DNA of 64,000 nt. Source: SAR202 cluster bacterium bin87 (GTDB lineage Bacteria > Chloroflexota > Dehalococcoidia > Lucifugimonadales > UBA3495). The translations under genes and the position numbers were made by a program. The DNA lies in assembly GCA_002238825.1 (NCBI GenBank), contig MPNC01000002.1:611180-675179 (forward strand), given 5' to 3'. Below the pieces are notes generated by a model, which saw only the letters and a program-made list of their open reading frames with translations, was not told the DNA's origin and made no database searches. Positions 53,449-57,231 of the stretch are shown piece by piece; within the stretch, counting starts at the first letter, position 1; every line of letters starts with the position of its first letter.

Positions 53449-53525
53449 TTATGATCTAGCCGTTGTGAGTATCAATATCAGACGAGTGGAACATCCGCGG
53501 AGCGCGTTACGACAAAGGGGGCATG

Positions 53526-53984
53526 ATGGCTGCATTGGAAATGGCCTATCACGTGGAAACGTACAGCTCAGGGACCCACGGCAGAGCAATCTGCAACGCC
53601 CGCACGCATCACTGGGTTGCCGATGATGGCGGCGGTGACGCGGTGGGAGCCGGCGAGTTGTTCCTTTCCGGAATTACGGCTTGCGCCGTGAACATGGTGG
53701 AGCGCATCGCGCTAACCGACGACGCCCCGGTGGACTTCATGGAAGTAACCGCTGAAGCCTTCAGGGACCCGGAAGCAACCCCCGGGGACGTGAGCCTCTA
53801 CGCCGACGTGCGCATCCACTTCAAAATCTGGGGCGTGGACGACGACCAGGGCAACTACCTGGTAGACACCTGGAAGAAGCGTTGACCACTGTATGGTTCG
53901 GTCGCCGTGGCGACCCCCAGCACTTCCGTCACCGCCGAGTTCGTCGCCGAGTCGCGCCAGAAGCACGCCGGCCGCGTCGCATAA
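53526..53984 (+). CDS. OsmC-like protein with in-frame UGA (selenoprotein candidate)
   Basis: A 152-residue OsmC/Ohr-family protein if UGA 53883-53885 is selenocysteine (residue 120). Ended at the UGA it would be only 119 residues and lack the last strand; reading through gives the normal length and TAA at 53982. The first redox Cys is Cys53 in LFLSGITACAVNMVE, the family position. The UGA falls in DTWKKR-U-PLYGSVAVATP, where relatives have the second Cys (C-P-x-Y). OsmC-like proteins reduce organic hydroperoxides with this Cys pair. OsmC-type selenoproteins are known from other bacteria. ATG 53526 is preferred to 53523 by spacing from AAAGGGG. A SECIS-like hairpin is at 53900-53915, and a promoter with a dyad lies upstream. 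It is followed by hairpins. Confidence 0.88.
53900..53915 (+). promoter_or_regulatory. Predicted SECIS hairpin of the OsmC-like gene
   Basis: GGTCGC (53900-53905) pairs perfectly with GCGACC (53910-53915), with loop CGTG carrying G in its second place. The loop begins 20 nt after the UGA. Confidence 0.65.
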
Positions 53985-56298: not shown

Positions 56299-57231
56299 AT
56301 GCGCATCTGTTCTTTTCTACCCTCCGCCACCGAGATTGTTTACGCATTGGGGCTGGAGGACCAGCTCTACGGTGTAACCCACGAGTGCGACTACCCGGCC
56401 CAGGCGAAAGACAAGCCTTGGGTGGTGCGCAGCGTTTTCGAAGGAACTCAGCCCAGCAGCGGCGAGATCAGCCGCGTGATTTCAGAGCGCCTCGCCGAGG
56501 GGCTTGGGATCTACCACATCGACCAGGAAATCCTGGACGCGGCCAACCCGGACCTGCTGCTCACCCAGGCTATCTGCGAGGTTTGAGCGGTGTCTTCTCG
56601 GCAGGTCGCCGAGTCCACCGCCAACATGGATAAGGAACCCACCGTCCTGTCGCTGGACCCGCAGTACCTTGGCGACGTGTTGGAAGACGTCCGGCGGGTG
56701 GGACGGGCCACAGGCGCCGAGTCCGTCGCCGAGCAGGTCACGACCCGGATGCAGGATCGCATCGACGCCATTACCCAGCGGTCGGAACTGGCTGACACCC
56801 ACCCGAAAGTGCTGCACCTGGAGTGGACCGACCCGTTGATGTGCGGTGGTCATTGGGTTCCGGAGATGGTGGAACTGGCCGGCGGAACCAACTGCTTCGG
56901 CGACAAAGAGATGGGCTCTTTCCCCCTGGAGTGGGACGCGGTCGTTGAGAGCCAACCGGAAGTCATCGTGGTCATGCCCTGCGGTTTTGAGGTACCCCGT
57001 GGCATGGAAGACATCCCCCTGCTCACGGAAAAACCGGGCTGGGCTGAGCTGCCGGCGGTGCAGAATGACCGGGTGTACGTGATCGACGCCAGCAACTACA
57101 CCAGCAGGTCGGGACCCCGGCTCGTCACCGGTCTGGAGATACTCGCGGAGATGATCCATCCTGAGCTCTTCGCCGGGATGATCCCGGAGGCGGGCGCACG
57201 CCGCATCTACGGCTCCGGCCAGAAAGCGTAG
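56299..57231 (+). CDS. BtuF-like (cobalamin-type) binding protein with in-frame UGA (selenoprotein candidate)
   Basis: A 310-residue periplasmic-binding-protein fold of the BtuF/FepB class, in the subgroup that lacks a signal peptide and is annotated as cobalamin-binding. The frame runs through UGA 56584-56586 (residue 96). Before it: [10 protein letters not shown]; after it: [10 protein letters not shown]. Relatives have C-x-x-C-A-V here, so the codon falls on the second Cys and gives C93-E-V-U96. Other family Cys are at 4 and 30 (THECDYP). The second half is intact ([19 protein letters not shown], then [12 protein letters not shown]). A compact hairpin is at 56597-56613. A normal GCGATGCGC start follows an AGGCGA site. 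Without read-through both halves would be non-functional. A cytoplasmic redox-linked or metal/corrinoid-binding role is possible; the ligand is inferred from family names only. Confidence 0.87.
56597..56613 (+). promoter_or_regulatory. Predicted SECIS hairpin of the BtuF-like gene
   Basis: CTCGGC (56597-56602) pairs perfectly with GCCGAG (56608-56613), loop AGGTC. The loop begins 16 nt after the UGA and resembles the GGUC-containing loop of the E. coli fdhF SECIS. Confidence 0.72.

Follow-up and report, generated by a model that had tools for sequence, protein, structure and literature searches.

The question raised by this locus is whether the UGA that interrupts a small OsmC-like reading frame marks its end or encodes selenocysteine (Sec) at a catalytic position. 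The gene occupies positions 53526-53984 on the plus strand of the window, that is, of the whole 64,000-nucleotide stretch that was analysed, and starts either at the ATG at 53526 or, equally possibly, at 53523 (ATGATG). As read in the window sequence, the frame 53526-53984 contains a single in-frame UGA (53883-53885, plus strand), which is codon 120 and lies within the motif RUPLYGS, where OsmC proteins have their second cysteine. If this codon is taken as Sec, the product has 152 residues and the frame closes with a TAA at 53982-53984; gene calling that is unaware of Sec would cut the gene to 119-120 residues. The sequence-only reading of this DNA had proposed an OsmC-like selenoprotein with UGA at the second Cys, in which read-through would restore the usual length of about 150 residues ending in TAA and the first cysteine, Cys53, would be kept; the translated frame bears out both the length and the retained cysteine, the codon of which, at the peroxidatic position, is located at 53682-53684 (plus strand). 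Our answer is that this gene of an uncultured marine bacterium very probably encodes a selenoprotein of the OsmC fold, with Sec in place of the second cysteine.

The UGA could, of course, be a real stop, resulting from a premature termination, decay into a pseudogene or a sequencing error, as the mechanically called ORF (53523-53885), which ends at this very codon, would have it. This explanation can be judged by the fate of the codon in the relatives of the gene, found in SAR202-type Chloroflexota and in marine Alphaproteobacteria. In 57 non-redundant stretches of 165 nt, derived from 84 loci, the aligned codon is TGA in 55 cases and TGC in two. Among 60 near-relative genomes, 32 (the genome of the window included) yielded a match; all 32 matches contain a TGA, and it stands at the aligned codon in all 30 loci read from them (G044 and G038 being left out). 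A scan of the species-genome collection returned 50 loci, from SAR202/Dehalococcoidia records and ten alphaproteobacterial ones, with TGA at the aligned codon in 49 and TGC in one (L097); Ile replaces Leu two residues past the UGA in 10 of these 49 TGA loci. The class-wide search matched five of 393 genomes, again including the genome under study: among the more distant members of the class, G176 and G063 carry TGA and G093 carries TGC, while the match in G060 is partial and lacks a TGA. The Cys form in L097 (3001-3423) belongs to a record labelled Proteobacteria, the genome of which still has selB. No match to the OsmC selenoprotein was found by tblastn in plasmid records, and the 16 pattern matches in IMG/VR viral contigs included no relatives.

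The sequence beyond the UGA behaves as coding sequence. Its pN/pS is 0.471 in the SAR202-type and 0.293 in the alphaproteobacterial genes, higher than before the UGA (0.307 and 0.207, respectively); being well below 1, these values indicate that the post-UGA part is under purifying selection. Such selection, together with the covarying hairpin and the loss of a significant Pfam score upon removal of the tail (see below for both), speaks against a real stop; as the same UGA is maintained in many independent records, this explanation can be regarded as refuted, its probability being practically nil.

Assignment of the protein to the OsmC superfamily depends on the part downstream of the UGA. The read-through protein, with Sec given as C, scores 35.7 bits against the Pfam OsmC family (PF02566), covering profile positions 1-94 of 100, and thus exceeds the gathering score of 27.5 bits; the UGA-terminated form, with 25.1 bits and positions 1-67, falls below it. 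The sequence-only reading would have failed if the post-UGA part had been unlike OsmC C-termini; instead, this part extends the Pfam match from 1-67 to 1-94. Alignment of the profile of the relatives with solved OsmC/Ohr chains places Cys53 and residue 120 on both conserved cysteines, the segment 'krCPlyGs' being aligned to the second Cys of the solved proteins, in keeping with what had been expected from the letters of the window. An AlphaFold2 model of the read-through protein (pLDDT 77.6, with residues 26-40 poor) retrieves OsmC/Ohr structures as top matches both with Foldseek (best E-value 1.7e-5, to 6mjn) and with VIA-align (2egt, Z 11.9, 1.7 A over 98 residues), where unrelated MAT structures start at Z 9.1. 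In the model, Cys53 is on the central helix and Sec120 immediately precedes helix 121-129; the last strand comprises residues 134-140, so that the UGA-terminated form would lack this strand along with the second Cys, as had been claimed. At the level of narrower families, no NCBIfam model covers the protein above its own cut-off; in particular, it scores 15.3 bits against the Ohr model TIGR03561, for which the cut-off is 88.85.

The RNA context of the UGA was considered next to the protein. A bSECIS-like hairpin, GGUCGC-CGUG-GCGACC, is located at 53900-53915 (plus strand), with its loop at 53906-53909, and the first loop base lies 20 nt past the UGA, exactly where the sequence-only reading had put it. 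The comparison involved 54 distinct sequences (excluded were both Cys forms and one row that duplicated another across the 48 nt), in all of which (54/54) the six-pair stem is intact: 324 of 324 cells are standard pairs, and in 15 of the 324 both sides have changed in a compensatory manner. None of 500 shuffles reached the observed percentage of paired cells, number of compensatory cells or covariation score, and versions of the hairpin slid along the alignment score far worse. Of the five measures of covariation, the two weaker ones are unremarkable because only two of the six pairs vary: as many pairs with a double change were seen in 113 of 500 shuffles, and as many further pair types in 470 of 500. 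On the protein tree, the A-U states of the outer pair require at least three changes and the U-A states of the inner pair at least two; hence, the compensatory states do not go back to one inherited event. The loop positions 2 and 3 are invariably G and U; PMC1088965 gives a small apical loop that contains a G as a feature of bacterial SECIS elements, and the present hairpin, with its 6-bp stem and invariant G at loop position 2, has the hallmarks of a bacterial selenoprotein hairpin. Codon usage points in the same direction: two codons within the hairpin are nearly fixed (GTC in 49 of 53 and GCG in 49 of 53), a valine 15 codons past the UGA is encoded by all four codons (25/13/12/3), and pS in the 43 SAR202-type sequences is 0.328 in codons +1 to +11 as compared to 0.619 before the UGA. 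Judged by these comparative patterns, selection acts on the hairpin at the RNA level. When the 48-nt segment of the window was folded in isolation, the signal was not significant (z -0.78, with 32 of 200 shuffles as good), and, since the hairpin is not unusually stable by itself, its support comes from comparison; a scan of the window with Rfam models found no match at gathering scores.

Was the machinery for Sec insertion available? The same genome encodes SelA (544.5 bits), SelB (352.7 bits) and SelD (373.1 bits, with an in-frame TGA of its own, read as UAAK), as well as a tRNA-Sec with the anticodon TCA, which was recovered by both the Rfam model and ARAGORN; the complete selA, selB, selC and selD set expected of a bacterium that makes selenoproteins is, accordingly, present. 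The selD gene, G000:C42:681408-682328 (L014), is itself a selenoprotein gene (HCAGUAAK), situated some 6 kb past the end of the window. SelB scored above the cut-off in 15 of 15 genomes tested (those of nine of the ten Alphaproteobacteria, of L097 and of distant relatives) and in 30 of the 32 near-relative genomes with the OsmC gene, the two without it being G023 (73% complete) and G027 (85% complete); because 56 of all 60 relatives have selB, its co-occurrence with the OsmC gene is uninformative as a test. With this machinery at hand, it is highly unlikely that the UGA encodes a different amino acid under a reassigned code or is leaky without Sec: in 7 of 57 relatives UGA serves as the true stop of the same gene, tryptophan is encoded by TGG (53 of 53 at codon -4), and both relatives that lack the UGA have Cys at the aligned residue. 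Thus, Sec at residue 120, as predicted from sequence, is strongly supported both by the comparative data and by the Sec machinery of the genome, and the initial proposal of an OsmC-like selenoprotein is upheld by the gain in Pfam score, the alignment of the cysteines, the covarying hairpin and the Sec genes.

A second selenoprotein gene is found in the window at 56299-57228 (plus strand), 2.3 kb downstream of the OsmC gene. Its product is a BtuF-like periplasmic-binding protein (PF01497, 85.6 bits) with an in-frame TGA at 56584-56586, corresponding to U96 in the motif CEVU. Recognized by motif, the BtuF-like gene accompanies the OsmC gene at 28 of the 50 loci and contains the TGA in all 28; a BtuF selenoprotein with CxxU is already listed in PMC13188914 and PMC9312934. 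The upstream neighbours, which from their sequences we take to be cysS, ispF and ispD, are common to the genus and point to no function for the OsmC selenoprotein. In the protein tree, for which midpoint rooting was used solely for display, a single branch with support of 100/100 unites the ten alphaproteobacterial sequences; it is nested in a SAR202-type group (support 93/89). This topology fits a transfer of the gene between phyla, the direction of which it does not prove.

What could the enzyme do? In the Ohr/OsmC thiol peroxidases, the peroxidatic cysteine is the first one. As set out in the parts of PMC8945050 devoted to these enzymes, it has a neighbouring Arg and Glu, both cysteines are required, oxidation gives rise to an intramolecular disulfide, and this disulfide is reduced by lipoylated proteins or AhpD. 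In the relatives of the window protein, R20, R26, E44, C53 and P121 are invariant (57 of 57), which, combined with the Ohr/OsmC chemistry, favours a hydroperoxidase with Cys53 as the attacking residue. The following sequence of events can be envisaged. SelB and tRNA-Sec would decode the UGA as Sec, guided by the downstream hairpin; in the mature protein, Cys53, aided by the invariant Arg and Glu, would attack the peroxide, and Sec120 would resolve the sulfenic acid to yield a Cys-Sec selenenylsulfide; by analogy with the Ohr/OsmC family, the enzyme would then be recycled by a dithiol, for example a lipoylated protein or an AhpD-type reductase. By the same analogy, this small OsmC-type selenoprotein is probably a peroxide-detoxifying, hydroperoxide-reducing enzyme, and the 'Cys/Sec peroxidase pair' of the sequence-only reading is reasonable but unproven. 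A third cysteine, Cys23 (codon 53592-53594), is found in 53 of 57 relatives and could take part in the reaction.

The order of attack is less certain. In redox enzymes, Sec commonly occupies the attacking position, and the model has Sec120 just ahead of helix 121-129, with a Pro as the next residue. Furthermore, in the HMMER alignment the invariant Glu sits at -9 relative to Cys53, one residue nearer than the Glu of the aligned Ohr, at -10 from its Cys; therefore, the catalytic triad of Ohr is not strictly reproduced and the catalytic site may differ. These features would suit a mechanism in which Sec120 attacks and Cys53 resolves, or else a selenol oxidoreductase other than a hydroperoxidase, which we consider a rather doubtful alternative given that it is the peroxidatic Cys of Ohr/OsmC that neighbours the Arg and Glu and that Cys53, Arg and Glu are all invariant here. 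On balance, attack by Cys53 and resolution by Sec120 is the order that we prefer, by a modest degree of confidence.

Set against the Ohr/OsmC thiol peroxidases (PF02566, TIGR03561), the window protein has the same fold and two-cysteine layout and also carries an invariant Arg and Glu, but Sec replaces the second Cys and the Glu is one residue closer to the first. The YhfA-type OsmC proteins also share the fold and the two cysteines; they are described, in the pertinent section of PMC8945050, as lacking the Arg and Glu beside the peroxidatic Cys. The window protein, unlike YhfA, has an invariant Arg and Glu, though with the Glu in a shifted register. Sec-containing peroxiredoxins and AhpD-like selenoproteins have folds other than OsmC. 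Both are listed in PMC13188914; their selenol-dependent thiol redox chemistry, predicted or demonstrated, is of the kind predicted here.

The closest precedent is the only OsmC selenoprotein that appears in the relevant sections of surveys and reviews, with the motif UxxT (PMC1088965, PMC2398784, PMC9312934, PMC13188914); an OsmC-like UxxT selenoprotein was reported in the Sargasso Sea study (PMC1088965). From its name and motif, we infer that the NCBIfam family NF041052, 'OsmC-related (seleno)protein' (OsmC_like_Se), is this Sargasso UxxT family. Could the window protein be a plain member of it? Both are OsmC-fold selenoproteins with two conserved redox positions and Sec encoded by UGA, and there is a weak NCBIfam match (E 0.0053). 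Its score of 16.7 bits, however, falls far short of the cut-off of 95, and the relatives tell the same story (L101, 18.0; L058, 32.2; L057, 36.3; L097, 23.1). Within the phylum, 27 of 400 genomes have an NF041052 match above the cut-off; in these 27 loci, the first position is Sec in 26 and Cys in one (UxxT in 23, UxxS in three, CxxT in one), and the second is always Cys (27 of 27), whereas the relatives of the window gene have Cys at the first position in 57 of 57. When 14 proteins from both families were aligned jointly, no cysteines other than those at these two positions proved invariant. Finally, the genome of the window holds a separate, true NF041052 member, G000:C42:387712-388143 (L116), with Sec first in the motif UEMT and scores of 150.8 and 159.9 bits in two comparisons; each Sec arrangement is thus represented by one gene in the same genome. 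Membership of the window protein in NF041052 is, therefore, extremely unlikely.

Hence, comparison with the described OsmC-type selenoprotein, the check that the sequence-only reading had suggested, shows Sec at the opposite cysteine: Sec first (ULLT and similar) and Cys second in NF041052, Cys first and Sec second (UPLYGS) in the window protein. Given this arrangement in the NF041052 loci and the joint alignment of both positions, the two families, as predicted from their sequences, place Sec at opposite ends of one cysteine pair. Table 1 of PMC13188914, with its 119 families, gives the UxxT form and no Sec at the second OsmC cysteine, and text searches of the literature, in a scope outside preprints and most subscription papers, found no other description of an OsmC protein with Sec second. 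By the rule stated in that review (PMC13188914), the same domain with a different Sec position makes a distinct subfamily; thus, Sec at another OsmC position adds a selenoprotein subfamily. Tentatively, and with somewhat more doubt than trust, the SAR202-type bacteria can be thought to possess a reciprocal pair of OsmC-fold selenoenzymes, in which selenium was recruited independently at both ends for differing roles, and of which the Sec-second type crossed between phyla. If so, the two roles would be attack versus resolution, or the action on different substrates, and the Sec-second type would have moved to or from the marine Alphaproteobacteria. The presence of both arrangements inside one genome would make a natural test of what Sec contributes at the attacking as opposed to the resolving site of one fold.
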